A stretch of 58,817 bases of DNA from Fibrobacter succinogenes (GCA_902756345.1 CACVQR010000019.1:1-58817); one strand, 5' to 3'. Numbered from the stretch's first letter, positions 1,748 to 19,550 are shown. Numbers and translations are program-made. Notes: a model not told the origin generated them from the sequence alone.

Positions 1748-2065
1748 ATGGAAAACGACACGTTCGGCGGCGCGATACTCGCATGGGTCAAGAGCGCAAA
1801 GGCGTTCCTGAAAGTCCAGGCGGGCACGGGCGACAACCTGCTCGAAGAAGACATTCGGGAAGGGTTCACCGACTATTGCCTATGGTCCACGTTCCGGCCG
1901 GAATGCATCGACACCGACGGCGAGCTTGACATGGAATGCCTGGACAGCGGCATGGTCCTGTTCAGGGAAAACTGCACCCCCGGAGAGGCGCTGGAATCGA
2001 GCTGCCGGCAAGCCTTCGGCACCGTCTTCGACAAGGACGACATCGCGGTACTGATGGAAGAATGA
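1748..2065 (+). CDS. hypothetical acidic protein, 105 aa
   Basis: Not recognised as a named family. The start at 1748 is well supported by a GGCGGAGG ribosome-binding site 6-7 nt upstream. The protein is acidic and probably soluble, with no signal peptide or membrane segment; it contains four cysteines but no CxxC pair. Its GC-rich codon use matches the housekeeping genes and differs from the AT-rich genes downstream, so it is probably native chromosome or an older resident of the island. A GGGGGA/TCCCCC hairpin at 2085-2100 follows the stop codon and could be a weak terminator. Confidence 0.6.
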   Translation: MENDTFGGAILAWVKSAKAFLKVQAGTGDNLLEEDIREGFTDYCLWSTFRPECIDTDGELDMECLDSGMVLFRENCTPGEALESSCRQAFGTVFDKDDIAVLMEE

Positions 2066-3091: not shown

Positions 3092-4327
3092 ATGCGAAAA
3101 CAGATACTTCCAATGAGAAACAAAAAACAAAATAAAATACAACACAAGAAGCAATTCAAGAAGCCTTTTAAAAAAAAAGGGAAAAAAATTATTGTACCTA
3201 AACTAAGAGTTTTTGAAGCATTTGCAGGAATCGGAGCTCAACATTCAGCTTTAAAGAGATTAGGTATTAATTTTGAGATTTCCGGAATTAGTGATTGGTT
3301 TATTGATGCCATAGAATGTTATGCGGCAATTCATCACGAAAATGATGTGGTAACTGTTCCGCAACAGAAAGAAAAAGTTCTAAAATATTTAGAACGAATG
3401 ACATTTAGCAAAGATTCTGTGCATTCATGTAAACTAGGAAGCCTATCCGAAGACGATTTGCGTGATCTATATCGTTCTAATAAGAAATGCAAAAATATTG
3501 GTTCTATTTTAGATATAAAACCTGAAGAAATGCCCCCGACAGATTTACTCGTATATAGTTTCCCATGCCAAGATTTGTCCACTGGCGGACTTGGCAAGGG
3601 GATGAAAAAAGGGTCTGGCACAAGGTCTGGTTTATTATGGGAAGTAGAACGAATATTAAAAGGCCTTAAGGATTTAAATAGGTTGCCCGAATATTTACTA
3701 CTTGAGAATGTGCGAACAATAAAAGCCGATTCGAATATAAATGATTTGAATCAGTGGTTGTCGTTCCTAGAAACATTAGGTTACCAGAATGATGATTGCA
3801 TGTTTTTAAATGCGCTAGATTTTGGTGTTCCTCAAGACAGGGAGCGAGCTTTTATAGTTAGTCATCTTGGAGAAAAACTAAACATTCCAGAGAAAATAAA
3901 ATCAAGAATGCAGCCGCGGGAATATCGATTTGAGGATTTCTTTAGAAATGATTACAATAATCCAACGCTTAAGTCTGAAGCTGATAAAGCACAGCTGAAC
4001 AAAACCCCTTCACGTGAAAAAATGTGGGAAATAAATGGACGTGAACTAAATGCTGATACTATCGTTAGGACAATTACATGCAATATGGATCGGACACACT
4101 GTGCGGCATTATTCCGGTATAATGGCGCGAAAGGAGATTCTTATCGTCGTCCCACAATAAGAGAAGCATTTTTACTGATGGGTTTTACCGAAGAGGAGTA
4201 TGAAAGGACACTAAGTCTTGACTACAGCTATCGGAAAATGAATAAATTGATAGGTAATTCTATTGTTGTGAACGTTCTTGTTGCAATATTTGATTCGATG
4301 TTTGGAGATAAATACAAATGTAGGTAA
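3092..4327 (+). CDS. C5-cytosine DNA methyltransferase (Dcm/HhaI family)
   Basis: 411 aa. It transfers a methyl group from SAM to C5 of cytosine in a recognition site that cannot be read from sequence. Conserved motifs are in order: motif I FEAFAGIGAQHSAL (~42), motif IV with the catalytic Cys in SFPCQDLSTGG (~155), motif VI LLENV (~205), motif VIII QDRERAF (~250) and motif X IGNSIVVNVL (~390). A long insertion sits between motifs I and IV. The N-terminal 35 residues are very lysine-rich; a start at ATG 3113 is also possible. It is the first gene of the co-directional defence run and presumably marks self DNA for the nucleases encoded downstream. Confidence 0.93.
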   Translation: MRKQILPMRNKKQNKIQHKKQFKKPFKKKGKKIIVPKLRVFEAFAGIGAQHSALKRLGINFEISGISDWFIDAIECYAAIHHENDVVTVPQQKEKVLKYLERMTFSKDSVHSCKLGSLSEDDLRDLYRSNKKCKNIGSILDIKPEEMPPTDLLVYSFPCQDLSTGGLGKGMKKGSGTRSGLLWEVERILKGLKDLNRLPEYLLLENVRTIKADSNINDLNQWLSFLETLGYQNDDCMFLNALDFGVPQDRERAFIVSHLGEKLNIPEKIKSRMQPREYRFEDFFRNDYNNPTLKSEADKAQLNKTPSREKMWEINGRELNADTIVRTITCNMDRTHCAALFRYNGAKGDSYRRPTIREAFLLMGFTEEEYERTLSLDYSYRKMNKLIGNSIVVNVLVAIFDSMFGDKYKCR

Positions 4328-4328
4328 T

Positions 4329-5366
4329 ATGGTTTATCGTCTTCCTATAGATACAAAGTCTTTATATCTGAATATAAAAAATGATAACGAAGCTGGCCAT
4401 ACAGCTACGGTTGCGACTCCGTTAAAGCAAGGATCCTCTTATAAAAAGGAGTTAGGGCAAATAATGAATATTCCTGAGAATATTGACGTATATTCAAGGG
4501 AAAATTTAGTGAGTTGCATTATTTCAAAATCTCGTGCTGAAGTTACAATTCCTAAAATATGTCTTTTTAATCGTGTTTCCGTCAATGGAGAAATTGTTGA
4601 TACGGATTGCAGCTACTGTATTTATGTACGTGAAGAGATTTCGACGAATAATATTCATTATGGACGTCAGAAAGTTCACTATCCGATATCTTTTTCATTC
4701 ATAGATGAAAACATATGTGTAAACAATAAAAAGGTTATTAAGGCATTATCGGAAAAATTGTCTAATTATGCTTTTTTGGTAAATGCTTTTGAATACGATG
4801 TTGAAACGGAAATTTTGAATTTTGATGTTACTATTGTTGGGCCTGGAAATATTCCTTATTCTAGGGTTTTTGTAAACCAAAAAGGGACCGGCTCAAAATA
4901 CATAAAATCCTATTTTGAATCTCTTGATAATTATGATACTGAAATAATTGCATTAAGAGAAAAGATGGGATATAATAATGTTGGGGTAGAAAATTACATC
5001 GACACGATAAATCAGAATAAATTTACGGCATCAAACGAAGTAAAAAGATATTTAGAAAAAAAAGAGTGTAGTGATATTAGGCTTATTTCGCACTCTTTTC
5101 CATATGCTTTGTATGATGTAGAGTATTTGGCCAATAGCACTAAACATTATGCTATTATTAAATGTACAGCAACAAAAGCAAAGCGTTTTATATTATCGGC
5201 TGAAGAAATTGCTTTTTGTAATAGGTTTCAAGAAAAAGTAGAATTGTTTCTATTGACTGATATTCTTGAAGATAAGAAAGTATTTCATTTCAATGCTGGT
5301 GATTTGTCTATCATGAAAAAAAGAATCCGTAATGTCATGTACGATGCTGGAGATTTGACAAAATGA
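4329..5366 (+). CDS. unrecognised component of the MORC/Z1 operon (possible degenerate nuclease fold)
   Basis: 345 aa. Family not recognised. I chose ATG 4329, one base after the methyltransferase stop; an in-frame start 51 nt earlier would overlap that gene. The C-terminal ~110 residues (YDVEYLANS, YAIIKCTATKAKRFILSAEEI) resemble the DUF3883 ('NO VEIN' C-terminal) pattern, in which a PD-(D/E)XK-like strand reads I-E-V-K. Here the Glu position is Ile (A-I-I-K), so any nuclease activity would probably be lost. The stop overlaps the next start as ATGA, which suggests translational coupling to the MORC ATPase. It may be a specificity or scaffold subunit (inference). Confidence 0.7.
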   Translation: MVYRLPIDTKSLYLNIKNDNEAGHTATVATPLKQGSSYKKELGQIMNIPENIDVYSRENLVSCIISKSRAEVTIPKICLFNRVSVNGEIVDTDCSYCIYVREEISTNNIHYGRQKVHYPISFSFIDENICVNNKKVIKALSEKLSNYAFLVNAFEYDVETEILNFDVTIVGPGNIPYSRVFVNQKGTGSKYIKSYFESLDNYDTEIIALREKMGYNNVGVENYIDTINQNKFTASNEVKRYLEKKECSDIRLISHSFPYALYDVEYLANSTKHYAIIKCTATKAKRFILSAEEIAFCNRFQEKVELFLLTDILEDKKVFHFNAGDLSIMKKRIRNVMYDAGDLTK

Positions 5367-6823
5367 GCGCTTTAGTTGAGAAACCAATCCCTGTCAAAGC
5401 GTTACTGCTTGGACTGCGAGCAATGGGGTATAGCTTTTCTACTGCTGTTGCGGATATTATAGATAACAGCATTACTGCAGAAGCTACGGAAGTGAATGTA
5501 TATTCTAATTCAGTAATTGAAAATCCGTACTTTTGTATTATCGACAATGGTTATGGAATGACATGTCTAGAGTTAGATAATGCTATGTTATTAGGATCTG
5601 ACCGGACAAATAGAAAAGAAGGACGCTTAGAGTTAGGCCGTTTTGGACTAGGGCTAAAGTCGGCATCTTTGTCCCAATGTAGAGAATTTACGGTTGCCAG
5701 TAAGAAAAATGGCGTGATTAATGCGATGTCCTTCGATTGTGATATTATTGAAAAAGAAAATAAGATGCTTCTTAAACAGCTATCGGAGGAGGAAGTAAAT
5801 TGTCTTCCCGAGATAGATCATTTAAAAGCATATGCTTCAGGAACTATTGTTATATGGCGAAAATTTGATAAAATTGAAAATTTAGCCAAGAGCTTTGAAG
5901 AAAGTTTTCGAAGCGCTGTCGCTGCATCAAAAAAACATGTAGAATTGGTTTTTCATCGTTTTTATGATCGCATAAATATTTTCTACAATAATCGACGAAT
6001 TGAACGAAGGGACCCCTTTTTGCTGAAATCTTTGGGACGAACACTCGTTGGTCGAACATCTACTATAAATGTGAAAGAGGCGAACGTTGTTGTTACCCCT
6101 TATACGCTACCTTTTTCTAACACATTGACAAAAGAGGAAAAGGATTTGTTAGGAAATCCAAGCAGCTTGTCCGAGGAACAGGGTTTTTATCTTTATCGAA
6201 ATGAAAGATTGATATCGTGGGGTAGTTGGATGCACATGGGCGTTCGGAGTGAATTCAACAAGCTTGCGCGTATACAGGTTGATATTCCGTCGTCACTCGA
6301 TGGCGTATGGATGCTAGATGTGAAAAAATCTACTGCCAAAATACCGGATAAGATAAAAGACAGAATTCGAATTGCTGTTGAAGATTCTATGGGACGTAGT
6401 AAACGTGTTACAAAATTTCCTGGAGTTAAGGAACAATCTCTCGAATGTAAAATATGGAATAGGATAGACATGCATGAAGGAAATATTCGGTATGAGATCA
6501 ATCGGGGATCTCCCGTTATATCGACATTGTTATCAACCTTGGGGGAACATGAGTTGTCTTTGCTGGAAATTGCGATTTCTCAAATAGAGAGCTATTTGCC
6601 AAAATATTCTATACTAAACGACAACTTAGATTCGTTGACTATTATTAATAAACACAATGATCGAGAAGAAGAAGCTCTTATAAAAGAAATAATTGATATT
6701 ATTGCAACGTGTCGTGAAGACAGAAAGAGAAAAACGTTTGAAGACATCTTTTTGGTCGAAGGATATCAAGTTTTATTTAAAAGAAAAGAAGAAATCAGAA
6801 GGAGAATTTTTGACCATGAATGA
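5363..6823 (+). CDS. MORC-like GHKL (HATPase_c_3) ATPase
   Basis: 486 aa. The GHKL ATP-binding signature is complete: N-box VADIIDNSITAEA (~30), IIDNGYGMT (~60) and GRFGLGLKSASLSQ (~90). MutL/Hsp90/MORC proteins dimerise as ATP-driven clamps on DNA. Prokaryotic MORC homologues are known in restriction-modification-like operons with Z1, AIPR and nuclease genes, as here. The C-terminal third is helical and charged, ending in an R/K/E-rich stretch that may mediate dimerisation or contact the partner protein. The start overlaps the previous gene by four bases; the end overlaps the Z1 gene by eight, so the three are probably translated as a coupled unit. Confidence 0.9.
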   Translation: MSALVEKPIPVKALLLGLRAMGYSFSTAVADIIDNSITAEATEVNVYSNSVIENPYFCIIDNGYGMTCLELDNAMLLGSDRTNRKEGRLELGRFGLGLKSASLSQCREFTVASKKNGVINAMSFDCDIIEKENKMLLKQLSEEEVNCLPEIDHLKAYASGTIVIWRKFDKIENLAKSFEESFRSAVAASKKHVELVFHRFYDRINIFYNNRRIERRDPFLLKSLGRTLVGRTSTINVKEANVVVTPYTLPFSNTLTKEEKDLLGNPSSLSEEQGFYLYRNERLISWGSWMHMGVRSEFNKLARIQVDIPSSLDGVWMLDVKKSTAKIPDKIKDRIRIAVEDSMGRSKRVTKFPGVKEQSLECKIWNRIDMHEGNIRYEINRGSPVISTLLSTLGEHELSLLEIAISQIESYLPKYSILNDNLDSLTIINKHNDREEEALIKEIIDIIATCREDRKRKTFEDIFLVEGYQVLFKRKEEIRRRIFDHE

Positions 6824-9695
6824 GATCACGGCTAAGTATTTTGATGTGATACAAAGAGCTTCTAATTCTATTTATGTAATGTATGATGGAGAGAAGCTAT
6901 CGCTTTCTAAGTTAAAGGAAGAAGCTGACTCAGTTCTTCCTAAAACTCTTCGGAATCCGAATGCCAAAACACTGCCTGACTATCCGGCTATTTTACAGGC
7001 TGTGATAGATGCATATGCGGAAGCATTTGGTATCGAAACCTATGCTCCGACAACGATTGCCAAAGATAAAACATCTCGTTTTTGGCTGCATAAAATTAAA
7101 TCTAAAATTTTCCATCCTTTTTTTGATCGTTATAAGCTTTATTTGAGCAAAGATGGTTTTTCGCAAAAGGCAATAAAGAATATTGAATTGTCGTGTGAAG
7201 AGGTCCTATCCTATTGTGCAAATCCCAAGAACCCTTCTGGTTTAGAAAAGAAGAGAGGACTCGTTATAGGAGATGTCCAGTCTGGAAAGACGGCAAATTA
7301 TCTTGGGCTAGTAAACATGGCTTATGATTATGGTTATCGCATTGTTGTGTTATTAGCGGGATCAACCGATTACTTAAGACTTCAAACGCAAAAAAGAACA
7401 GATAGCGGTGTAATTGGAGCGAAAAGCCAAACTATAGGCAATACTATCGAATATATCGGAGTTGGAGATGGTTTAAACGACCATTTTGTAGTCCCTTATA
7501 CAAATCAGAAAAGTGATTTTTCGGCATTTATCCAAAAGAATAAAAACCTTACTATTGGCGATTTGAAGAAGCCCGTTGTACTTGTGGTCAAAAAAAATAG
7601 TTCGGTATTAAAAAGCGTGGGTGAAAGATTGCAATCAGAATTGATGGCAAAAGGTCTTGATTCTAAAAGTATTCTTATAATTGATGACGAGGCAGACTAT
7701 GCTTCTGTCGATACATCGCCTACCGAAACCCCATCAACAATAAATGGCCTCGTTCGTGAAATTTTTAATAAGTTTCCTATAGCCAGCTATGTTGGTTACA
7801 CAGCAACTCCTTTTGCAAATGTTTTTATAGATCCTTTTGACGATGATATAGAAAATTTAGATTTATTTCCGTCAGATTTCATAACACAATTGCACGCTCC
7901 GAGCAACTATTTTGGCGGAAGAAAAGTATTTCCCAAAGGAGAAATTCCTAGAAGTCTTCGATTAATTTGTGAGGAAGAACCTTTATTTTTGCCTGTTATT
8001 CACGACAAAAATATTAGCTATCCGGGGTTGCCGCAATCACTGAAGGAAGCAATACATTGTTTCCTTATAGATAATGTTGTTCGGTCATTGCGTGGACAGC
8101 TGACGAAGCACAGATCCATGATGATTAATATTACGCGTTTTAATTCTGTTCAAAAGCAAATATGGAATCACGTAAAAGAATATATAAAAGCTCTGACAGA
8201 CATAATAGAGGAAGCCGGATGTAAAACTAAAGATGAATTTGTTGCATATGAAGCAACGAAAAACATTTACGACCTGTTTATGAAATCGAAATTTTATGAG
8301 ATAGTACGAAATGGAAACAGCGAAGACAGCATGGGTCCTGTTTCATGGGAGCAGGTGCAAAGAGGATTGTATGATGAAATAAAACAAATAAATGTTGTTG
8401 TTATTAACTCAACAAATGGGAAAATGACAAGCCCAGACAAAGGTAAACGTTTTGATTATGATGACTATGAGACTGTTGGGGCTCGCGTTATTGCTATAGG
8501 TGGAATGGTGTTGTCGAGAGGATTGACATTAGAAGGGCTTATGGTGAGTTATTATAGTCGCAATGCTGGGGCATACGATACGTTATTACAAATGTGTCGG
8601 TGGTTCGGTTATCGACCAAAATATGAAGATTTATGTCGTGTATATCTTACGCAGGATAACGTTGACCGCTTTGATGTTGCACTAGATGCTATTGAAGATT
8701 TCAAAATGCAATTGGAGGACATGAAGCTTAACGACAAGACTCCAAAAGACTATGGACTTATGATAAAACAAAGCCCGGAAACTCTTGAAACAACATTATT
8801 GATAACCAGCAGAAACAAGCTTCGTGGAACGGAAGAAATACAACTTCGTCTAAATTATGGCGGAGTATATGCGGATACTTCAAAACTTCCAAGGCGAGCA
8901 GACGTTAATAAATATAATTTAAAAAAATTTCAGCAATTTAGTAAAAAGTTGAAAAATCGTTTTGGATGGAATGATAATTTTTATATGGCGAGCGGAATAG
9001 AAAAGTTCGCGATTGCGGATTTAATTAAAGAACTAAAAATCTCATATGTTAATAAAAAATTCGACACTAAAACATTATCTGAATACATAGAAAAAAGTGA
9101 AATGTTTGAACTTTGGGATGTTGTTATTGAAACAGGGGATAAAAAAACTAAAGATTCGATGAAATATGATTTTGAAGGGGAAAAATTAGTTTGCGTGCAT
9201 CGAAGTTTCAGCATTAACAATAAAGAAGATGAATTTATCCGTCTTGGAGGAACAAATAACCGCGTTATTGATCCCGGGGTATTTAATGCAGGTTTGTGGT
9301 TGTCAGAAGCAGCTTCGCAGGCAATATTAGAAGAAAAAAAACGTAATGATCCTAAACACGGAGAGTACAAAACTCTTTCGGCCACTGATTATTTAAAGAA
9401 AAGAGAAAGACCCGTTTTAGTAATTTATCCAATAGAACTAAAAACAGAATGTAATGATAAGGAAAAGGAAGAATGGGGTGATCTTATTGATGATTTACGT
9501 ATCATAAAAGACAATATAAAAAAGCAACTGTCCAATGGAGAAAATGAGCCTTTGTTAGCATTTGGCATAGGTTTTCCGAAAAAAGAGAATCCGGTTGCTG
9601 TTAGTTATCGTGCTAATCAGATTAAACTGGCTCAATTACGTGCAGGTATAGAACCTGATTATGATGACGTTGATGGAGATATTAACGATGATTGA
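6816..9695 (+). CDS. Z1-domain helicase-like ATPase
   Basis: 959 aa. Superfamily-2-like motor: Walker A GDVQSGKTANYLGL (~153), Walker B/DEAD-like IIDDEADYAS (~285), a TATPFAN motif (~330), and the Z1 hallmark LSRGLTLEGL...LQMCRWFGYR (~570-610) with the arginine motif. Z1 proteins are thought to translocate on or remodel DNA for a partner nuclease. ATG 6816 is preferred because GGAG lies about 12 nt upstream and it overlaps the MORC gene by 8 nt; an in-frame start at 6693 would overlap it by 131 nt. The C-terminal ~300 residues form the second part of the Z1 family and carry no recognisable extra domain. Confidence 0.93.
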   Translation: MNEITAKYFDVIQRASNSIYVMYDGEKLSLSKLKEEADSVLPKTLRNPNAKTLPDYPAILQAVIDAYAEAFGIETYAPTTIAKDKTSRFWLHKIKSKIFHPFFDRYKLYLSKDGFSQKAIKNIELSCEEVLSYCANPKNPSGLEKKRGLVIGDVQSGKTANYLGLVNMAYDYGYRIVVLLAGSTDYLRLQTQKRTDSGVIGAKSQTIGNTIEYIGVGDGLNDHFVVPYTNQKSDFSAFIQKNKNLTIGDLKKPVVLVVKKNSSVLKSVGERLQSELMAKGLDSKSILIIDDEADYASVDTSPTETPSTINGLVREIFNKFPIASYVGYTATPFANVFIDPFDDDIENLDLFPSDFITQLHAPSNYFGGRKVFPKGEIPRSLRLICEEEPLFLPVIHDKNISYPGLPQSLKEAIHCFLIDNVVRSLRGQLTKHRSMMINITRFNSVQKQIWNHVKEYIKALTDIIEEAGCKTKDEFVAYEATKNIYDLFMKSKFYEIVRNGNSEDSMGPVSWEQVQRGLYDEIKQINVVVINSTNGKMTSPDKGKRFDYDDYETVGARVIAIGGMVLSRGLTLEGLMVSYYSRNAGAYDTLLQMCRWFGYRPKYEDLCRVYLTQDNVDRFDVALDAIEDFKMQLEDMKLNDKTPKDYGLMIKQSPETLETTLLITSRNKLRGTEEIQLRLNYGGVYADTSKLPRRADVNKYNLKKFQQFSKKLKNRFGWNDNFYMASGIEKFAIADLIKELKISYVNKKFDTKTLSEYIEKSEMFELWDVVIETGDKKTKDSMKYDFEGEKLVCVHRSFSINNKEDEFIRLGGTNNRVIDPGVFNAGLWLSEAASQAILEEKKRNDPKHGEYKTLSATDYLKKRERPVLVIYPIELKTECNDKEKEEWGDLIDDLRIIKDNIKKQLSNGENEPLLAFGIGFPKKENPVAVSYRANQIKLAQLRAGIEPDYDDVDGDINDD

Positions 9696-10620
9696 TTTTG
9701 AAACAAAATTCGATGGTCTTGTTAACGAAATTGTTGGAACGCAAAAGAAAATAGACGTGTGCTCCATATTGGGCGTTTTTTATGGATTAAGTAAAGAAGG
9801 CTTGCCGAGGTTAGCGTTTTCCTCTTCATCAGCTTCTCCTAAACTTAAATCCACAAAAGTATTGCGAGTGGAACAAGGTTGGGAATCTCCTTTAGTTTAC
9901 TGGACCTGTTTTGACTTGTTGCAACCAGATGCGAAAAAAGCTTTTTGTGCGTTTTGTTCAAATTTGACAGAGGCAATAGAAGGCTTTATAGATGAATATA
10001 GCGCGTTCCTTGCTTTGAGGCGACGGTATGCCATTTGGAAAATGATGTTCAAGAATAATTCTGAAAGTGCTATTTCGCCGGAAAAGATGCAGGGCCTTTT
10101 TGGAGAGCTGTATTTTTTGAAAAATCATTTACTTCGTAATTGTACGCCTAGCGAGGCTGTTCGTGCATGGGGCGGTGGTGATGGAAATAGTAAGGACTTC
10201 GCAATTCAAAACACCTGGTATGAAATAAAAACAGTTGGAGCGAATTCGACTGAAGTAAAGATATCATCTTTGACTCAGCTGGAGTCAGAAAACGAAGGCC
10301 ATTTGATTATCATTAAAGTAGAAGGAATGCCTGAACCATTTGAAAAGGATGATTCGTGTGTTGGAGATTTGATATCCACAATTATTTCAAAAATTGAGGA
10401 TGAAAAAGTTGAGGAGGCATTTCTTGCAAAGCTTAGTAATTATGGGTTAAACTCTTCATGCGACTGTTTTTCAGATAAATTTGATGTAAAAAGCGTGAAG
10501 CAATATAAAGTTGATAGCGAATTTCCCCGTTTGATAAATGCGAATGTTCCGTATAAGGAAATCTGCAGGGCAGAATATTCATTGTCAATTGGCATGTTAA
10601 ACCCTTATTTAGAAGAATAG
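9688..10620 (+). CDS. PD-(D/E)XK motif protein (DUF4420 type), likely the nuclease of the MORC/Z1 system
   Basis: 310 aa. It contains GLFGELYFL (~145), then SKDFAI and WYEIKTV (~170-185), giving the E...D...E-x-K arrangement of a PD-(D/E)XK active site as in the DUF4420 family. It probably cuts DNA delivered by the Z1 motor (inference). ATG 9688 has a GGAG site about 10 nt upstream and overlaps the Z1 stop by 8 nt, which again indicates coupling. No signal peptide or membrane segment. Codon use is as AT-rich as its neighbours, so it was probably acquired with them. Confidence 0.87.
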   Translation: MIDFETKFDGLVNEIVGTQKKIDVCSILGVFYGLSKEGLPRLAFSSSSASPKLKSTKVLRVEQGWESPLVYWTCFDLLQPDAKKAFCAFCSNLTEAIEGFIDEYSAFLALRRRYAIWKMMFKNNSESAISPEKMQGLFGELYFLKNHLLRNCTPSEAVRAWGGGDGNSKDFAIQNTWYEIKTVGANSTEVKISSLTQLESENEGHLIIIKVEGMPEPFEKDDSCVGDLISTIISKIEDEKVEEAFLAKLSNYGLNSSCDCFSDKFDVKSVKQYKVDSEFPRLINANVPYKEICRAEYSLSIGMLNPYLEE

Positions 10621-10623
10621 AAA

Positions 10624-12726
10624 ATGGAACTAGAAGAATTTCGACAAGAGTTCATAAATGAAGATATCCGTATACCCGCGGTGACAACCCATCGTTATCC
10701 TGAAGAGGTTTTTATTGATTATTGTACTGATGTTTTTCAGGATGTATTCTCTTTTGCAAACGAGATGGTTCATTCTTATTTCTGCTTTAAAGATGGCAAT
10801 CGAGCGTACAAGAGCATGCGTTTGGACGCATCATGCTTTGATCGGACTACATCGACTATTTATTTGTTGATTGCCGATTACAACGACGGAGAACTAAAAA
10901 ATATTACAAATTCGACAATAGAATATCTATGCAAGCAATTGTTGTCTTTCTTTGAAAACGCTCTAAAAGGCTTTTTTGACAAAGGAGAGATGTCAGATCC
11001 CGCGGTACAATTGGCAAGAGAAATAAAGCGCAGTGCTAATGAAATTCAAATAGTTCATTTGTTTGTGATTAGTACAGATAAATTGAGTAAATCTGTAAAA
11101 ACGCTTAAGTTAGATAATTTTAAATATGGTAACTTTGAATATAGAGTGATTTTGGATGTTTTGGATATTGAAAAAATATTTCGATCAAGAATGCCTAGTT
11201 TTAAAAAGGAACCCTTGGTTATTAATTGTAATGATTTTGGAATAGAGGGAATTCCTTGTATAAAGGCGGATATCCAAACGGACCAATATAAGTCGTATCT
11301 TGCTATTGTTCCAGGACAATTTCTTGCGGAAATATACCATAAATATGGGATGGCTCTACTTGAATCTAATGTTCGGTCCTTTCTGAAATTCAATGGAAAA
11401 ATTAATAAAGGAATTCGCGAAACAATTCTCCACGAAAAATCAAGATTTTTTACATATAATAACGGGGTTTCAATTACAGCAAAAGATGTGAATGTAGAAA
11501 TGACATCGAAGGGAACTCTGATTACAGGATTTACAGATTTACAGATTATTAATGGTGGTCAAACGACCGCTGCTCTGGCTTTTACGCAAAGAAAAAACAA
11601 CCGGGATGAAAATGAAAACCTGTCGGGAATCTTTGTCCAAATGAAGCTTACGGTTTTAAATGGTGATGATCCAGAATTAATATGCAATATTGCAAAGTAT
11701 GCTAATAGCCAAAATAAGGTGAATAATGCAGATCTTAACTCAAGTCATCCGTTCTATGTTCGAATGGAAAATATTTCTCGTAAGATGTATACCCCTGTTG
11801 TTAGTGGTGAGGTAAATCAAACGCTGTGGTTTTTTGAACGGATACGAGGTCAGTACGAACAACCTCTTATGCAGATGGCTACTAAGAAGCAAAGAGATGA
11901 ATATAAATTACTGCGGCCTAAGAAAAATAAATTTACATTGACAGAGCTGTCGAAATATATGAATGCTGCTGATATGTACCCTCATTATGTTTCTTGGGGT
12001 GGTGAAGTAAGTTCAACATTCTTTCATGAAAGAATGAAGGAATTATGGAATAAAGACAGTCGATGCTTCGATGAGTTGTTTTACAAAGAACTTATAGGAA
12101 AAAAAATATTCTTTTCTTTTATTGAAGGAAATATATCTAATCAATCTTGGTATCAGGAAAAAAGGGCGTATCGCCCTCAACTCATTGCATATACTTTTTC
12201 AAAAATAGTCTATGAAGCAAAGAAAATAAAGAAAGTAATTGATTATAAAGCAATGTGGGATTCACAAAGCGTACCAGAATGTTATAGTAAAGATGTTGCT
12301 ACCGTTGCGAAAAAAGTTTTCGACGCAATATATGATGACAAAAGATCAACTGCTAACATTGAAACGTATTGTAAGAAAGAAGAATGCTGGTCTGTGATTC
12401 AAAAGATAGAATACACTTTGTCGAAGGACGTTCAAGATGTTATGGTGGCACAAGTGGATGCTGATATAGAACGTGCGAATATACAACAAGATCATCAATT
12501 AGATGGATTACTGAATGACGAACTCGCTGTATTCGAAAAAGGGCACGATTACTGGAAATCCCTGTTAGATCGAGGGCTTTTGCAAAAAGCTATTGACGAA
12601 GAAGATGAAATTGCTTTAAAAATTGCGATAGACTATTGTGATCAAATTAGTTTAGAGCTTTCTAAAGAACAGTTTGTAAAGATTTGTGAAGTCGTTACAA
12701 AATTAAAAGAAAGTGGGATTGAATAA
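10624..12726 (+). CDS. AIPR family protein (abortive infection phage resistance)
   Basis: 700 aa. The AIPR core is clear: RFFTYNNGVSITA (~278) and LQIINGGQTTAALAF (~305), followed by NIAKYANSQNKVNNADL (~360), matching the family's conserved Asn/Gly-rich region. AIPR proteins were first linked to abortive phage infection and recur beside MORC and Z1 genes; their biochemical role is not settled. The gene starts three bases after the DUF4420 stop, with only a weak purine-rich site. The C-terminal 150 residues are acidic and helical. It is the last of the five genes that fit the known MORC/Z1/AIPR layout. Confidence 0.9.
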   Translation: MELEEFRQEFINEDIRIPAVTTHRYPEEVFIDYCTDVFQDVFSFANEMVHSYFCFKDGNRAYKSMRLDASCFDRTTSTIYLLIADYNDGELKNITNSTIEYLCKQLLSFFENALKGFFDKGEMSDPAVQLAREIKRSANEIQIVHLFVISTDKLSKSVKTLKLDNFKYGNFEYRVILDVLDIEKIFRSRMPSFKKEPLVINCNDFGIEGIPCIKADIQTDQYKSYLAIVPGQFLAEIYHKYGMALLESNVRSFLKFNGKINKGIRETILHEKSRFFTYNNGVSITAKDVNVEMTSKGTLITGFTDLQIINGGQTTAALAFTQRKNNRDENENLSGIFVQMKLTVLNGDDPELICNIAKYANSQNKVNNADLNSSHPFYVRMENISRKMYTPVVSGEVNQTLWFFERIRGQYEQPLMQMATKKQRDEYKLLRPKKNKFTLTELSKYMNAADMYPHYVSWGGEVSSTFFHERMKELWNKDSRCFDELFYKELIGKKIFFSFIEGNISNQSWYQEKRAYRPQLIAYTFSKIVYEAKKIKKVIDYKAMWDSQSVPECYSKDVATVAKKVFDAIYDDKRSTANIETYCKKEECWSVIQKIEYTLSKDVQDVMVAQVDADIERANIQQDHQLDGLLNDELAVFEKGHDYWKSLLDRGLLQKAIDEEDEIALKIAIDYCDQISLELSKEQFVKICEVVTKLKESGIE

Positions 12727-12746: not shown

Positions 12747-14336
12747 ATGAGGGAATTTTTTAAACAAATTTTTGAATTAGGCTACACTCAATACAAGGGT
12801 TTGGGTATATCGCAAGAGGGCGTAGAAACTGCAGAACAGTTCAGAAATCTTGCAGAACAAATGAAGCCATTGGCGGAAATGCAAGACCTTTATGTGCAAC
12901 CCTCCGTTGGCAGAGGCCGATGGGCAACAGTTCCTTGGATTCGTCTTTATGATAAAGATGTTGCGCCAAGGCCCACAAAAGGTCTTTACATTGTTTATTT
13001 GTTTGCAGAATCAGGAAAATCCGTTTTTTTGACTTTAAATCAGGGTGTTGAAAACGCTTCGGAGACGGATATTGCGCGTCTAAAACTCGATATCCAGAAA
13101 GCTATTGAAACGAATATATTCCATCACAATAAAGGCGTCCTTTCGGATATTGGGAATTACGGCGGCTCAACTATTTTCTATAAGGAATATAATTCAGATG
13201 CACTTCCTTCAGATGATGAATTGAAAACTGACTTGAATGAAATGATGCAGGTCTATAAAGAGTGTATAAACAAGAACTTAACTAGTCCAATTAGACTTGG
13301 TAAAAATAATCCTCCTACTCCGATCAATCCACCACAACCATCTTCGCCTAACAAGCTTTCGGTAAAAAAATTGGAGGAGCATATTCAGAAAATTTTCTTC
13401 GGGGCGCCAGGAACAGGCAAATCCCATACAATTGATTATAGCCTATTTGAAGAGGATAATAAAAAACGCACTGGATTAAAAGACTATGATAATGCTGTAA
13501 TTCGCGCCACATTCCATCCTGATTATGATTACGCGCAATTTGTAGGTGCGTACAAACCGAAGAAGGTTGATGGCACCATCACCTATTCCTTTATTCCGCA
13601 GGTTTTTGCAAAAGCATACGCGACGGCTTGGAAAAGCTATTTGAGCGGAAATAAAGAAGATGTATTCCTCGTTATCGAAGAAATCAATCGTGGGAACTGC
13701 GCCCAGATTTTCGGCGATATTTTCCAGTTGCTTGACCGCGACAGTGAAGGATTCTCGCAATATTCCATCGATGCGGATTGCGATTTTGCGGATTGGCTCA
13801 AGACAAATGATAACGGGTTGAAATCTGTTTGGCCGGCATACGAAGAAAAGGTCGGCGATGGCAAGCTCAAACTCCCGCCGAACCTGAACATTCTCGCCAC
13901 GATGAACACCAGCGACCAGTCGCTGTTCCCCATGGACAGTGCGTTCAAGCGTCGCTTTGACTGGGAGTATGTGCCAATCAGTTTTGAAGGCAAGGATGCC
14001 GCCAATTATCAAATCGACATCGACGGTTCTCAGTATTCTTGGCAAAATTTTGTCGAAACCGTCAATGATAAGATTCTGGATCTTACCGAATCCGAAGACA
14101 AGCAACTCGGCGAATTCTTCATCAAGCCTGACAACGGCAACATCATTTCTAAAGAACGGTTCCTTGGCAAGGTGATGTTCTACCTTTGGAACGAGGTCTG
14201 CAAAGACGAACATAAAAACGGCTCATTCTTCCGTGCAAAAATCAATGACAAGGAAGATTTCTTTACTTTCCAGGACCTTTACAAGAAAAAGGACCTTTTA
14301 AAGCTGTTTATGGACGAGTTGTTAAAGAAGGAGTAG
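12747..14336 (+). CDS. McrB-like AAA+ NTPase with DUF3578 N-terminal domain
   Basis: 529 aa. Residues ~1-175 match the MrcB_N/DUF3578 module, thought to recognise modified DNA (PSVGRGRWATVPWIRLYD). The AAA+ domain has Walker A FFGAPGTGKSHT (~213), FHPDYDYAQFVGAYKP, Walker B FLVIEEINRGN (~310) and the McrB-type NILATMNTSDQS...AFKRRFDW (sensor and arginine finger). In McrBC, a hexamer of this subunit translocates DNA using GTP and activates McrC. A GAGGG site lies upstream of the start. It begins 20 nt after the AIPR gene, so it is probably co-transcribed with it, but from about 13.4 kb codon use becomes more GC-rich, hinting at a separate origin. Confidence 0.92.
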   Translation: MREFFKQIFELGYTQYKGLGISQEGVETAEQFRNLAEQMKPLAEMQDLYVQPSVGRGRWATVPWIRLYDKDVAPRPTKGLYIVYLFAESGKSVFLTLNQGVENASETDIARLKLDIQKAIETNIFHHNKGVLSDIGNYGGSTIFYKEYNSDALPSDDELKTDLNEMMQVYKECINKNLTSPIRLGKNNPPTPINPPQPSSPNKLSVKKLEEHIQKIFFGAPGTGKSHTIDYSLFEEDNKKRTGLKDYDNAVIRATFHPDYDYAQFVGAYKPKKVDGTITYSFIPQVFAKAYATAWKSYLSGNKEDVFLVIEEINRGNCAQIFGDIFQLLDRDSEGFSQYSIDADCDFADWLKTNDNGLKSVWPAYEEKVGDGKLKLPPNLNILATMNTSDQSLFPMDSAFKRRFDWEYVPISFEGKDAANYQIDIDGSQYSWQNFVETVNDKILDLTESEDKQLGEFFIKPDNGNIISKERFLGKVMFYLWNEVCKDEHKNGSFFRAKINDKEDFFTFQDLYKKKDLLKLFMDELLKKE

Positions 14337-14339
14337 GCG

Positions 14340-15446
14340 ATGTCAGATTATAAGATTCCATCCTTGCCTTTACCTTTTAAGTTTGAATCCGTTGCGATAT
14401 ACAAGCAACTTTCTGCAGCGTCAAGAGCGTTGGCCGAATTAAAGGGAGTCGCGCAAACAATTCCTAACGAGAACATTCTGCTGAACACATTGGTTTTGCA
14501 AGAGGCTAAAGATAGTTCCGAAGTAGAGAATATCGTAACGACGCAGGATGAAGTCTATCAGGCTGATTTAGACATTCAGGAAACGCTTTCCAAGCCTGCG
14601 CAGAAAGAAGTCTTGCGCTATCGAGAGGCTATGCATAAAGGGTTTGGCCTTGTCAGGTCTAACCATTTGCTTACGAATGCAGTAATCAAGCAAATTCAAC
14701 AGGTGCTGGAACAGAACAAGGCCGGCTTTCGAGCCGTTCCTGGCACGGCATTGAAGAATGGACATGGCGAAACAATCTATACTCCGCCTCAGTCAAAAGA
14801 TGAAATTGAACGATTGATGTCCAATTTGGAAAAGTTCATTAACGACCCTGAAGTTTCTGATCTTGACCCGTTGATCAAATTGCCAATTATTCACCACCAG
14901 TTTGAAAGCGTCCACCCATTCTATGATGGCAATGGTAGAACAGGCAGAATAATAAATATCCTGTACTTAGTAACGAACGGCCTTTTGGACCTTCCCATTC
15001 TTTATTTGAGTCGTTATATCAACCATAATAAGGCGCGTTATTATTCCCTGATACAAGAAATTAGGGAAAAGGCTCCCGATAATGAAAAAGAATGGGAGTC
15101 GTGGATTATTTTCCTTTTGAAGGGCGTGGAGGCAACCGCAAACGAAAACGTAATCCTGGTTGGGAAGATTAGAGAACTGATGCAGGAGTACAAGCAAAAG
15201 ATTCGGTCGGCCTTTGGTGCAAAGTATAACCATGAACTGCTGAACAACTTGTTCAAACACCCGTATACGAAGATTGAGTATATTGTCCGTGATCTCGAGG
15301 TCTATCGCCTTACTGCGGCAAAATACCTTGATGAGTTGGTAAAAATGGGGTTGTTGAATAAAGAAAAAGTTGGAAATAGCAATTATTATATCAATCAACG
15401 TTTAATAGACTTGTTTATAAATCAGCCAAATGTAGAGGATAAATAA
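14340..15446 (+). CDS. Fic-domain AMPylase-like protein with C-terminal winged helix
   Basis: 368 aa. The Fic active-site motif HPFYDGNGRTGR (~198) is intact, so the protein should transfer AMP (or a related group) to a hydroxyl of a target protein. An inhibitory-helix motif SSEVEN (~60), fitting the S/T-x-x-x-E-G/N rule, sits in the N-terminal domain and would autoinhibit the enzyme in cis. The last ~70 residues look like a winged helix (LEVYRLTAAKYLDELVKMGLL), typical of Fic proteins that bind DNA. It starts three bases after McrB and separates it from its McrC partner; three 41-bp repeats follow its stop. It may regulate the McrBC pair or be an independent toxin-like module. Confidence 0.92.
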   Translation: MSDYKIPSLPLPFKFESVAIYKQLSAASRALAELKGVAQTIPNENILLNTLVLQEAKDSSEVENIVTTQDEVYQADLDIQETLSKPAQKEVLRYREAMHKGFGLVRSNHLLTNAVIKQIQQVLEQNKAGFRAVPGTALKNGHGETIYTPPQSKDEIERLMSNLEKFINDPEVSDLDPLIKLPIIHHQFESVHPFYDGNGRTGRIINILYLVTNGLLDLPILYLSRYINHNKARYYSLIQEIREKAPDNEKEWESWIIFLLKGVEATANENVILVGKIRELMQEYKQKIRSAFGAKYNHELLNNLFKHPYTKIEYIVRDLEVYRLTAAKYLDELVKMGLLNKEKVGNSNYYINQRLIDLFINQPNVEDK

Positions 15447-15602: not shown

Positions 15603-17579
15603 ATGATTTTCCTGTTCGAACAGTTTGCCTATAGCGAAAAATTCCTGCAAAGCGTCCTTCCGCAAGAAAAGAAGGGCGGTAATTGGGACTTGCCGAAGGG
15701 TTTTGTTACAAAAAGCAAGTCCGGCGATTTTGTGTTGGACGGCGTAGGGTATCTTTACAACAAGTCCGCAAAGGGCTCCGCGAAGGACTCCGACGATAAA
15801 ATCGTTTTCGTGTTGCCCAAGGTGTTCTTGGAAGAGGGCGGCAAGGCATTTGGCAAAGATGTAAAAGGTGACGCCAATTTCGCTCTTGAAAATGCACCCA
15901 AGGACTTTTTAGCGAACCTTTCGATGTGGGTCTGCTCCTCGATTGCGCAATACCAGAAACTGCATCCGAATGACAGAGCTATAGAATCTCCGAACGTCCA
16001 CCGTTTCGGTAGCGATGCCGCAGCCCCGACTCTTATTGACGTGATGAATTCGATGAAGCTGTTCTATGCCGAAAACAAGAACCTGTTTGTGTTCACGGCC
16101 AAGAACAAGCACAGCGGCAACAACCGCATCGACTGGCGTCGCACGGTGGCGCATACGCAGCCCTTTATGCAAGGTGATGCGCCCATCTACATGGAGCTGG
16201 AAAACAAGAAGAAAGTTTTCGACCTGGACGACCGCCTGCTGGTGCTGTACTTTTCGGCGATGCACTACATCGAAGAGACTTTCGGCTTCAAGATGCCGCA
16301 TTCCGAATTTTACGTGCCGATGCGGGTGAACGAATTCCGCCGCCTGTTGGGCCACCGCGGCCTCGTGGAACTGCGCCGCATAAAGCACAAGTATTTTGCC
16401 GACAAGTTCTTGAAACTCTACAACATCGTGAAGGCGTTCTTCGAGTGGGGCGGCAACTTCAGCGCAAGCGATTACAGCAGCGAATATCTGCTCACGAGCA
16501 AGTACAACAACGTGTTCGAGGCGATGATTGACAAGCTGGTGAGTGACGATTTGCCCCACGAGATGCAGTACTTAAAATCGCAGAGAGACAACAAGGAAGT
16601 CGACCACCTCTATAAGGACCGTCAACTCATTTTCGCTGACGAAGAACAGAAAATCTGGTTCATAGGCGATAGCAAATACTATAGCGATGGCAAAAAGATT
16701 GAGGGTTCTTCCATATACAAGCAGTTCACCTATGCGAAGAACATCATTCAGTATAACATTGATGAGCTGTTGGACAAGGGGAATGGCTTCAAAGGCTTGC
16801 GTTATCGCGATGAGCTGACAGAAGGCTACAGCGTTACGCCGAACTTCTTTATCCGTGGGTATCTGCCGAATAGCGATGGCGATAAGGATTCGCCGCAGTT
16901 CCGCGAACCCTATTTCAGAAACGACTCATCGGAAGAGTTGATAAAGAACGAGGAAGATTCTAATAGCTATCAGCTCATAGACGACGAGGGCAATCCAATC
17001 GGTTCCAATAAAGGACAGTCTCTTTGGGACCTGCGCAATCGTCATTTCGAGAACCGCCTCTTTGACCGTGACACGCTTTTATTGCAAGTGTACAATGTGA
17101 ACTTCTTGTATGTGTTGAAGGCTTACACATCTAAGCGTTCGTCCTTGCGCGATGAATTCAAGCGCGATGCCCGAGAGAAGTTCCGAAAGAATTTTTTGAA
17201 TTTACTTAGAGATAAGTATTATTTCTGGGCTATATATTTGCCGGACTGGCAAAAGCCCGATTATGCAGAACGGCTCCAGGATTTTGTTGACCGCCATTTC
17301 CGTGCACTAATGGGCCGCGTGTTCCAGCCCGCAGGAACGCCTCATTGCCTGATACTCGCGCTGGAGCAAAGTGCCGTGAACGCTTCGCTGGAAGGCGCCT
17401 TGGATAAAGATTACGAAAAAATTCGTCAAATTGTTAAAGACGAAAAGTGCGAAATATTCCAAGTGTGGCCCCATGAAATTTGGGATAACGGTAATTCCCA
17501 GAAATGGGACGATGAAAGCCTGCAGCAAAACAAAGTCACTGAATTGGGTGTGGTTGACGCACTTGTAAAATTTCCTTAA
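15603..17579 (+). CDS. McrC-like restriction nuclease subunit (DUF2357/LlaJI type)
   Basis: 658 aa. A McrC/LlaJI-like protein with a PD-(D/E)XK core: LIFADEEQKIWFIGDSKYY (~340-358), where D-x-K-Y matches the D-A-K-Y seen in McrC nucleases. The preceding region (FEQFAYSEKFLQSVLP..., FVLPKVFLEEG) is the family's N-terminal part. It should cut DNA when driven by the McrB ring encoded upstream. ATG 15603 is the first start in a frame open from 15585. There is no clear Shine-Dalgarno; the preceding 41-bp repeats may control expression. Its extreme C-terminus (FQVWPHEIW) recurs as a remnant at 19131. A strong terminator follows. Confidence 0.82.
   Translation: MIFLFEQFAYSEKFLQSVLPQEKKGGNWDLPKGFVTKSKSGDFVLDGVGYLYNKSAKGSAKDSDDKIVFVLPKVFLEEGGKAFGKDVKGDANFALENAPKDFLANLSMWVCSSIAQYQKLHPNDRAIESPNVHRFGSDAAAPTLIDVMNSMKLFYAENKNLFVFTAKNKHSGNNRIDWRRTVAHTQPFMQGDAPIYMELENKKKVFDLDDRLLVLYFSAMHYIEETFGFKMPHSEFYVPMRVNEFRRLLGHRGLVELRRIKHKYFADKFLKLYNIVKAFFEWGGNFSASDYSSEYLLTSKYNNVFEAMIDKLVSDDLPHEMQYLKSQRDNKEVDHLYKDRQLIFADEEQKIWFIGDSKYYSDGKKIEGSSIYKQFTYAKNIIQYNIDELLDKGNGFKGLRYRDELTEGYSVTPNFFIRGYLPNSDGDKDSPQFREPYFRNDSSEELIKNEEDSNSYQLIDDEGNPIGSNKGQSLWDLRNRHFENRLFDRDTLLLQVYNVNFLYVLKAYTSKRSSLRDEFKRDAREKFRKNFLNLLRDKYYFWAIYLPDWQKPDYAERLQDFVDRHFRALMGRVFQPAGTPHCLILALEQSAVNASLEGALDKDYEKIRQIVKDEKCEIFQVWPHEIWDNGNSQKWDDESLQQNKVTELGVVDALVKFP
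17458..17485 (+). repeat. 28-bp direct repeat, left copy (inside the McrC-like gene)
   Basis: Identical at 27 of 28 positions to 19132-19159. It encodes FQVWPHEIW in the McrC-like C-terminus. The two copies bracket the terminator and the first AlbA_2 gene. Confidence 0.85.
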
Positions 17580-17620
17580 GCCCCTTGCCAATTTTGGGGA
17601 TATTAGGTACATTAATGCCC

Positions 17621-17659
17621 GACGCGATTCTCTGTCAAATGGAGAACCGCGTCTTTTTT
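17621..17659 (+). terminator. Rho-independent terminator after the McrC-like gene
   Basis: GACGCGATTCTC at 17621-17632 pairs with GGAGAACCGCGTC at 17641-17653 (one bulge), followed directly by a run of T. It closes the defence operon. Confidence 0.85.
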
Positions 17660-17702
17660 ATTCCGGGATTTCGGAGTAAAGGGGACGCCTCTAACATCAA
17701 CC

Positions 17703-17718
17703 AGCCGCGAACGCGGCT
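17703..17718 (+). promoter_or_regulatory. 7-bp hairpin just before the AlbA_2 ribosome-binding site
   Basis: AGCCGCG and CGCGGCT separated by two A's, ending 4-5 bases before the GGAGG site at 17723. It may affect access of ribosomes to the start at 17732; that is inference. Confidence 0.35.
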
Positions 17719-17731
17719 ACATGGAGGCTGC

Positions 17732-19129
17732 ATGGCTACGAAAGTTTTGGTTAAAGAATGTCAATACGCTGAATTCAAACAGTCTTGGCAAGATGAATAC
17801 CTGAAATGGATTTGTGCATTCGCAAATACCGAAGGCGGGTCGCTTTTTGTCGGCGTTGACGATAAAGGCTATGTTTGTGGTGTTAAGAATGCTCATAAGT
17901 TGAGTGAAGATATTCCGAATAAGATTCGCAACACGATGGGCGTCATTTGCGAGATGCGACTGCTCAATGCTGGTGGGTTGGATTACTTTGAAATCAAGGT
18001 GGACAAGTATCCTGTCCCGATTAGCTACAGGGGCCGCTATTACAAGCGTTCGGGCTCCACGGTGCAAGAATTGAGCGGTGTCGAGATAAACAGGTTGACT
18101 TTGTTCATGCAGGGGCGCACTTGGGATTCCGTTCCTGTCCCTGGAATTTCGACGAAGGAGTTGGATCACGGAGCGCTAAAGTTGTTCAGGGAAAAGGCGG
18201 TCGAATCGCAGCGTCTCGATAAAAAGGCTGCCGGAGTCTCGGTGCAGAATCTTCTCCAGAATCTCCGCTGCACCGAAGGTAGCCATTTGACACGTGCGGC
18301 CATGATGTGTTTCCACCCTGACCCGGAACGCTGGGTTACGGGAGCGTACATAAAGATTGGATTTTTCGCGACTGAAGCGGATATTTTGTATCAAGACGAA
18401 ATCCATGGACCGCTTTTGATTCAGGTCGAGCGGGCGATGGACTTGATTTTCACGAAATACATGAAGGCGTTGGTGAGTTACGAGGGAATCAATCGCCAGG
18501 AGCGGTTCTTTTTCCCGCCCGACGCTTTCAGGGAATTGTTGTTGAACGCCGTCGTCCATAAGGATTACACTGAAACGACTCCTATCCAAATCAAGATTTA
18601 TTCTGACCGTATCTGGATGTGGAACCCGGGCAACATGCCTGAAGAAGTGAAGGTGAAGGACCTTTTCAAAAAGCATGTTTCTAAACCGCGTAACCCCAAT
18701 ATCGCCAATGTGTTTTTTAAGAGCGGCTATGTGGAAAGCTGGGGACGCGGCTATTACAATATCGAATTGGCTTGCGAAGAAACTGATTCCAAGCTCCCTA
18801 AGCCAAAGGCCGAATTTGGCGGGCTTACGGTTGAATGCCGAGCAAGCGACCAGTATAAGGAACTTGCAAGTAAATGGAATATAAGTAGGGCGAACCGAAC
18901 TATAAACCTGCCTATAAACCTGCCTATAAATCTGCCTATAAATAGCACCCAAAAAGCATTGTTGAATTTGTTGCAAGAGAATAATTCTTACACTTATGAT
19001 GAATTGGCCGGTAAGATGCAAAAAACTCGAGAAACCATACGTGAGAACTTAAAAAAACTTCAGGAACTCGGCCTCATCCGTAGAGTCGGCGCGCGCAAGA
19101 ACGGCCATTGGGAAATTGTTGAGAAATAA
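17732..19129 (+). CDS. Schlafen/AlbA_2-domain protein with GHKL-like and winged-helix parts (first copy)
   Basis: 465 aa. N-terminal AlbA_2 domain (ECQYAEFKQSW ... FANTEGGSLFVGVDD, ~1-120), a middle region with DAFRELLLNAVVHKDY (~270), typical of the HATPase_c_4 fold in RecG-like AlbA_2 proteins, and a C-terminal winged helix (SYTYDELAGKMQKTRETIRENLKKLQELGLI, ~425-455). Such proteins are often annotated as transcriptional regulators; many are in defence islands. The start at 17732 has GGAGG at 17723. A linker at ~390-404 is four repeats of I-N-L-P from 12-bp DNA repeats. The gene sits between two copies of the McrC 3' end, as if inserted there. Confidence 0.85.
   Translation: MATKVLVKECQYAEFKQSWQDEYLKWICAFANTEGGSLFVGVDDKGYVCGVKNAHKLSEDIPNKIRNTMGVICEMRLLNAGGLDYFEIKVDKYPVPISYRGRYYKRSGSTVQELSGVEINRLTLFMQGRTWDSVPVPGISTKELDHGALKLFREKAVESQRLDKKAAGVSVQNLLQNLRCTEGSHLTRAAMMCFHPDPERWVTGAYIKIGFFATEADILYQDEIHGPLLIQVERAMDLIFTKYMKALVSYEGINRQERFFFPPDAFRELLLNAVVHKDYTETTPIQIKIYSDRIWMWNPGNMPEEVKVKDLFKKHVSKPRNPNIANVFFKSGYVESWGRGYYNIELACEETDSKLPKPKAEFGGLTVECRASDQYKELASKWNISRANRTINLPINLPINLPINSTQKALLNLLQENNSYTYDELAGKMQKTRETIRENLKKLQELGLIRRVGARKNGHWEIVEK
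18901..18943 (+). repeat. 12-bp tandem repeat in the AlbA_2 linker
   Basis: TATAAACCTGCC at 18901, 18913 and (with one change) 18925, plus a partial copy. The period is a multiple of three, so copy number changes would only lengthen or shorten the INLP linker. Confidence 0.8.
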
Positions 19130-19130
19130 A

Positions 19131-19208
19131 ATCCAAGTGTGGCCCCATGAAATATGGGAAGGCGAAGACCTTCGCAAAAATCGCGGATGGAAAGCCGTCG
19201 AAGAATAG
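19131..19208 (+). pseudogene. C-terminal remnant of a McrC-like gene
   Basis: Immediately after the AlbA_2 stop, the frame starting ATC at 19131 reads IQVWPHEIWEGEDLRK and ends at TAG 19208. The first 28 bases match the 3' part of the McrC-like gene at 17458 with a single mismatch; the rest diverges, so this is the tail of a related but different gene. It marks a recombination junction: the AlbA_2 gene now lies between two McrC-family 3' ends. Confidence 0.7.
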
Positions 19209-19254
19209 CGCGGGTGTTGACTTCCCACTGACCTCTTTGTATATTTATCCCTGT

Positions 19255-19445
19255 ATTACGACAATCCCTGCGACAGTCGGCATAGGCCTTGCGGCCCGTA
19301 CGTGCATCCGCGGTGGGGTTCATCAACCTTCTTGTTGATGTTGTTGGATAGCTGGCAGGAACACGACCTGCTCGAGTGTGTGGCGAAAGCCGCGCCAGGT
19401 AACGCCGAGGAAGACCCTCGCCAACAACACCGCAAGAGCATCCCA
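19255..19445 (+). repeat. 191-bp structured element, copy 2
   Basis: Inverted partner of 1391-1581. Helices on the plus strand: GCGGTG 19310-19315 with CACCGC 19428-19433; ATCAAC 19322-19327 with GTTGAT 19334-19339; TTGTTGG 19341-19347 with CCAACAA 19421-19427; CTGGC 19352-19356 with GCCAG 19394-19398; GGCGAAAGCC 19382-19391 (GAAA tetraloop); CGAGG 19406-19410 with CCTCG 19416-19420. Copy 1 has CGGGG/CCCCG for the last helix, a compensatory change. It ends 105 nt before the start of the second AlbA_2 gene. Family unknown. Confidence 0.8.
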
Positions 19446-19550
19446 AAACATAAAGAAACCCAAATTGCGTCCGCAGTGCAGACGCTATTAAAACCGTTTT
19501 TAACGTTCGCTCATGCCGAGCGGGCCAGAGGATTATTAAGGGAGACCTTC

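Follow-up and report, generated by a model that had tools for sequence, protein, structure and literature searches.

A MORC-Z1-DUF4420-AIPR operon of Fibrobacter succinogenes with an adjacent C5 methyltransferase and a rare subunit of predicted inactive nuclease fold

Prokaryotic MORC–Z1–AIPR systems are widespread, are related to the eukaryotic MORC silencers and remain mechanistically unsolved. Iyer et al. 2008 (PMC2292703) describe prokaryotic MORC operons that contain an SFII helicase of the third type, an RE-fold gene with an E-D-ExK signature, a Dcm cytosine methylase, Vsr and AIPR. The MZA system (mzaABCDE) was subsequently reported by Gao et al. 2020, and Miller et al. 2022 (PMC9523054) define a putative type II, in which Z1 and DUF4420 (printed there as DUF4220) are accompanied by a C5 methyltransferase (MTase), with AIPR added and a strong MORC association, and which shares about 20% identity with mzaBCDE of the validated mzaABCDE. 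According to the same paper, MzaA occurs in only a few relatives. In the restriction systems CglI and NgoAVII, a DEAD ATPase with a Z1 domain (the N-protein) hydrolyses ATP heavily and drives a separate nuclease, and site methylation removes most of the ATPase response in CglI and less of it in NgoAVII (PMC4267653).

The locus analysed here lies in a window of 58,817 nucleotides, a contig of Fibrobacter succinogenes (GCA_902756345.1, CACVQR010000019.1:1-58817) from a source genome of 3.36 Mb in 27 contigs; Fib_succ_major proteins encoded in the window likewise suggest Fibrobacter. Six uninterrupted co-directional open reading frames on the plus strand were called between positions 3092 and 12726. 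The first encodes a C5-cytosine DNA methyltransferase (3092-4327; PF00145, 7.5e-48), which heads the operon, and the second a protein of 345 residues, hereafter U (4329-5366, within an ORF at 4278-5366), characterised by a sub-threshold NOV_C match, an AF2 model and alignments. These are followed by a MORC-family GHKL ATPase (5363-6823; HATPase_c_3 PF13589, 1.7e-33; PADLOC MzaB, 1.7e-61), an SF2-type ATPase with a Z1 domain (6816-9695, ORF 6693-9695; Z1, 1e-68; PADLOC MzaC, 2e-106), a DUF4420 PD-(D/E)XK nuclease that is MzaD-like (9691-10620, ORF 9661-10620; PF14390, 1.4e-43) and an MzaE-like AIPR protein (10624-12726; AIPR, 4e-79; AIPR_N, 3e-18). The start codons of three genes, U, Z1 and DUF4420, were shifted downstream to 4329, 6816 and 9691, respectively, on the basis of homology. 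The operon genes have a GC content of 33-38%, lower than the roughly 50-55% found further along in the window. The initial annotation, which had proposed six overlapping or tightly spaced, co-directional and AT-rich genes, is thus borne out: all the reading frames are intact, the named Pfam domains are found and the six-gene operon is real.

Comparison with the described systems places the operon within the known MORC-Z1-DUF4420-AIPR class (Iyer 2008; Miller 2022 type II), on the basis of its gene order, its adjacent C5 MTase and the intact residues of its ATPases and nuclease, while the U-bearing form appears to be a rare variant of that class. MORC, the SFII helicase, the RE-fold gene, the Dcm methylase and AIPR are shared with the operons of the available portion of Iyer et al. 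(PMC2292703), which includes neither U nor the two nuclease folds lacking an active site that are described below. The type II of Miller et al. (PMC9523054) differs in that a 'putative transcriptional regulator', possibly the counterpart of U, is named and no subunit of inactive nuclease fold. With MZA, it shares homologues of MzaB, C, D and E in the same order, and PADLOC and NCBIfam match its last four genes to these proteins; it differs in carrying a C5 MTase and U, and a PADLOC scan of the operon and of flanking genes gave no match to MzaA, which is sigma-factor-like. All four NCBIfam scores fall far below the equivalog cut-offs (MzaB 245 against 850, MzaC 411 against 1500, MzaD 76 against 420, MzaE 272 against 1050), and by these models the operon does not count as MZA in the strict sense. 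CglI and NgoAVII (PMC4267653) resemble it in the Z1-containing DEAD ATPase, the separate nuclease and the 5mC MTase, but their nuclease is of the PLD type with a B3 recognition domain and they lack MORC, DUF4420 and AIPR.

Neighbourhoods of Z1 genes were gathered from the source phylum (168 genomes) and from one genome per species for 84,980 species (80 loci), and HMMs derived from the genes of the window served to score their gene content. Contiguous MORC-Z1-DUF4420-AIPR order is complete in 78 loci from many phyla, which is far beyond chance; the loci were chosen by similarity of Z1 to MORC-type relatives, so the constancy applies to this Z1 lineage, and more distant Z1 genes of the source phylum (L029-L035) have other partners. 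The median gaps between successive core genes in the 78 complete systems are -7.5, -35 and -4 bp; such overlapping or abutting genes fit the expectation for the subunits of one complex. In 73 of the 78, a C5 MTase is found no more than 1.5 kb from the core, and since the background of C5 MTases in related genomes is roughly estimated at 0.4 per Mb, a chance neighbour would be expected at well under 1% per locus. Two (L052, L113) of the five systems without an MTase at this distance start at a contig edge. The placement of the MTase varies: it is upstream on the same strand in 27 systems, downstream on the same strand in 23, downstream on the opposite strand in 17 and upstream on the opposite strand in six. 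Vsr, a repair enzyme accompanying 5mC, is present beside 40 of the 78 complete systems (two members confirmed by Pfam), which argues that these loci truly make 5mC. The conserved defence-type operon of the initial annotation thus proves to belong to a class already described, and the comparison of Z1 neighbourhoods that it had suggested as a check on its six-gene set upholds the four-gene core and the steady presence of an MTase, but not the place or strand of that MTase nor U, which is confined to one clade. The constant unit is the four-gene core and not the six-gene order.

The motifs reported earlier for the GHKL, Z1, PD-(D/E)XK and AIPR families are complete, and the family residues that are (nearly) invariant across 73 systems are all present. 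MORC carries N35, D61xGxG65 and G92..G95LG97..K99 at the GHKL family positions, and its best PDB matches are human MORC2 and MORC3. Z1, for which sequence search matched no solved structure, keeps its Walker A (GDVQSGKT) and Walker B (DDEAD) motifs, conserved in the 73 systems. In DUF4420, the residues E149, D179, E188xK190 and Q206 are invariant in 73 of 73 systems (the numbers of E149, D179 and E188xK190 being counted from the ORF start at 9661 and not from 9691), and catalysis is therefore likely to be under selection. As had been claimed, DUF4420 is the predicted nuclease, and judged by its residues, the only nuclease-fold subunit of the operon with an invariant active site.

These features suggest, with moderate confidence, an ATP-dependent and self-sparing defence system of restriction type. 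The C5 MTase would methylate host cytosines and so mark self, and the complex would engage incoming DNA that is unmethylated; Z1 would hydrolyse ATP and move along the DNA or remodel it, MORC may form a clamp whose ATP-gated closure loops or holds the DNA, and DUF4420, of which the active-site residues alone are shown, would cut. AIPR and U may be accessory or target-sensing subunits, their inactive nuclease folds serving DNA binding or assembly. The steady C5 MTase (73/78), Vsr (40/78), the invariant DUF4420 site, the (nearly) invariant ATPase motifs, the lack of a conserved site in the other nuclease folds of the operon and the close spacing of the core genes argue for this reading, as do the precedent of CglI and NgoAVII (PMC4267653) and the likeness of type II to the validated mzaABCDE (Miller 2022, PMC9523054).

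The evolution of the MTase fits this proposal less well. The motifs of the window MTase, PCQ (158-160) and ENV (205-207), are intact and conserved in 73 of 73 systems, whereas its first ~36 residues are not conserved among relatives. Four other U-type operons are headed by MTases with 54-71% identity to it, and it is 33% identical to the relocated MTase of L028, which stands at the tail of its operon, overlapping AIPR, and has 31-36% identity to the other five MTases of the U clade. In the MTase tree these five group together (0.886) and L028 leaves them. The remaining L028 genes (U, MORC, Z1, DUF4420 and AIPR) are 39-53% identical to those of the window, and no exchange block was detected in any of the five beyond the divergence seen in other members. 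The correlation between MTase and core identity over the 73 systems is r 0.43-0.50, against 0.81-0.89 among the core subunits, and L071 and L076 have MTases 79% identical beside cores that are ~36% identical. The position of the MTase requires ~21 changes on the core tree, where shuffled positions require a mean of 37 and a minimum of 31. A second candidate replacement, L061 against L071/L083 (26% versus 71%), was set aside because the L061 contig begins at MORC and an upstream MTase may be missing. Mirror-tree analysis for a subunit co-varying with the MTase (Z1 p 0.009, MORC 0.10, AIPR 0.29, DUF4420 0.84) gave no clear winner, the subunits being strongly collinear, and r reached at most 0.42 in a local-window scan. 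These patterns are natural evidence that methylases are exchanged among the systems.

Such exchange without visible change of the core is compatible with two views: the core may tolerate any methylase, as it would if, for instance, the methylase itself targeted the complex, or the site may be recognised through a few residues invisible to identity scans. It poses the question of whether the core or the methylase chooses the target. The L028 replacement would be odd if a core subunit read the same site; this counts against the self-sparing reading, as do the partial tracking of the core by MTase identity and the five systems without a near MTase. The mechanism offered initially, in which the MTase would mark self and MORC and Z1 would load or drive DUF4420 on unmodified DNA, is plausible and supported in part, by the steady MTase, the intact ATPase motifs and the single nuclease site. 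The strongest competitor, though unlikely, is that the MTase is the targeting subunit, as in type I and type III systems: a core without a target-recognition domain of its own would dock on the neighbouring C5 MTase and attack the unmodified sites of that enzyme. The exchanged and relocated MTases (~21 changes, shuffled mean 37), the 33%-identical enzyme serving L028 beside an ordinary U-type core, and the L071/L076 pair would all be in accord with it; however, the MTase is on the opposite strand in 23 of 73 systems, which is unusual for a stoichiometric subunit, and the interaction is purely putative.

Copies of U were found in the window, in five further systems (L028, L036, L037, L038, L039) and on a 15.7-kb viral contig. 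The six non-viral systems constitute a single clade of the core tree (6/6, support 1.0), with L028 nested inside. Vsr is absent from this clade (0/6) and present in 40 of the other 72 systems; the hypergeometric probability, calculated by hand, is ~1%, and as the clade is one lineage the absence represents at most one event. A single-sequence search of plasmids and viral contigs with U found none, and an alignment search found the one viral contig (L155, from IMG/VR), on which MTase, U, MORC and Z1 follow in order until cut by the contig end, suggesting carriage of the U-type operon by a mobile element. Other genes of this contig appear, by eye only, recombinase-like and capsid-like. A search of 391 genomes from the class to which L038 belongs recovered U in L038 alone; of two further, chance matches, one falls in a prophage-like region.

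Pfam gives for U a NOV_C match alone, below threshold (2.5e-4). An AF2 model built from five sequences (pLDDT 70.7) resolves the N-terminal part poorly, and residues 216-345 adopt in it a PD-(D/E)XK fold, with VIA-align Z scores of 11.5 to the SPARDA nuclease and 10.7 to Hjc, and I-Ssp6803I within Z 10-11.5; Foldseek alone gives E 0.018 and probability 1.00 for this C-terminal domain. The structural match is in keeping with the sub-threshold NOV_C match. The aspartate of the YD motif (D263) is invariant, and I276-I-K278 stands at the ExK position in the window copy; in the alignments, the (D/E)xK signature is gone from all six copies (IIK, IIR, IVR, MVF, IVR, LVF). U is thus modelled as a nuclease fold without the normal active site, and we infer a DNA-binding or scaffold role. 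The 'unknown subunit' of the initial annotation can be assigned a dead nuclease fold in its C-terminal domain. An identity of U with MzaA or another known defence protein was considered and rejected, no PADLOC model matching the copies of the window, L036 and L037. The L028 copy (L028:9972-11048) has a weak local PADLOC match to DrmMII, a DISARM 5mC MTase (5.5e-6, residues 173-293).

The AIPR model (59 sequences, pLDDT 89.1) similarly indicates that residues 1-195 resemble PD-(D/E)XK enzymes, with VIA-align Z scores of 9.1 to AF1548, 8.8 to AspBHI and 7.8 to MspJI, and further matches to FokI, Hachiman HamA and Shedu SduA; Z scores of 8-9 are modest, and the rows mostly represent one fold. Foldseek returned no significant match to the model and sequence search matched AIPR to no solved structure. 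No ExK is conserved in this domain among the 59 sequences, the best positions being D68 (51/59), D73 (45/59) and D85 (43/59), and it is accordingly predicted to have a nuclease fold but no conserved active site. The invariant residues, namely NNG, QI.NGG.TT (NGGQTT), N.Q and ER..G, are located in the central domain, and the C-terminus is helical. A ParB/Srx-like assignment of the central domain (GmrS, DndB) is at most tentative: NGGQTT looks like DGQQRxTT and the AIPR model gives weak structure rows to SspE (Z 4.4) and PadC (4.1), but hhalign did not confirm the likeness (GmrSD_N probability 0.1; DndB probability 21, out of register).

The analysis thus adds to the class the assignment of DUF4420 as its predicted nuclease and of the AIPR N-terminus and U as putative nuclease folds that lack an active site, and names concrete residues by which the class can be tested. 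What is new here is the mobility of the MTase across the 78 systems, the U clade with its ExK-less fold, the fold of the AIPR N-terminus and the MTase replacement in L028. A tentative and rather doubtful extension would be a machine of three nuclease folds, one of them cutting, in which the core has no target-recognition domain, specificity comes from the adjacent and swappable C5 MTase, and the dead fold of U senses or scaffolds in the U clade.

The AIPR model also bears on abortive infection, according to which AIPR, or DUF4420, would be a toxin freed on sensing phage DNA and kept quiet on self DNA by the MTase. AIPR is classified among the abortive-infection families, and a toxic N-terminal HEPN domain has been predicted for AIPR proteins (PMC3506569); the N-terminus is, however, modelled here as PD-(D/E)XK-like and not HEPN, without a conserved ExK, and the operon contains no antitoxin-like gene, making this reading improbable. 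Still less probable is a complex that acts by silencing or compacting foreign DNA without cutting it, in the manner of eukaryotic MORCs. Relatives of human MORC2 and MORC3 compact DNA, these two are the best matches of the MORC subunit, and one subunit alone keeps a nuclease site; the invariance of that site (73/73) nevertheless implies that catalysis is selected.

Self-sparing restriction remains the preferred reading of the operon, which is followed by a separate module on the plus strand comprising a McrB-like AAA protein (12747-14336), a SoFic Fic protein (14340-15446) and a LlaJI/McrC-like nuclease (15603-17579). Of the 168 phylum genomes, 34 have a module of this McrB-SoFic-LlaJI type, in most cases with no MORC-Z1 in the vicinity. 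That the head MTase belongs to this module, with the MORC-Z1 genes inserted between, is highly improbable: in this phylum, LlaJI modules are often equipped with their own C5 MTases and a single MTase is present here, but the MTase-U-MORC order recurs in L036-L039 and on the viral contig with no LlaJI homologue in the stretches examined, the MTases of the four genomic loci are 54-71% identical to that of the window, and many LlaJI modules have no nearby MTase. Upstream of the operon, a gene for a protein of 105 residues without Pfam or PADLOC match (1748-2065, plus strand) has relatives in 53 of 168 phylum genomes, up to 98% identical and often within about 20 kb of LlaJI or MORC-Z1 modules, suggesting that it may mark a defence hotspot in the genus; such a hotspot would explain why the MORC-Z1 and McrB-LlaJI systems adjoin and are yet separate.

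Several observations concern the wider surroundings. A YhcG/DUF1016 PD-(D/E)XK protein (PADLOC PDC-S02) is encoded on the minus strand at 129-1307, near the window's left end. A Fic gene between two restriction subunits recurs in L137, L139, L142 and L146. Proteins of ~700 residues resembling BbrUII/HgiDII, together with C5 MTases, are found beside LlaJI modules at L025:15070-17169 and L027:14863-16950, and that of L025 has two HATPase domains, HATPase_c_3 at the N-terminus and HATPase_c at the C-terminus. Two AlbA_2/HATPase_c_4/HTH (Schlafen-type) proteins are encoded next to each other at 17585-21008 of the window, on the right side of the defence cluster, and homologues of these lie downstream of LlaJI in L145, L147, L149 and L140.
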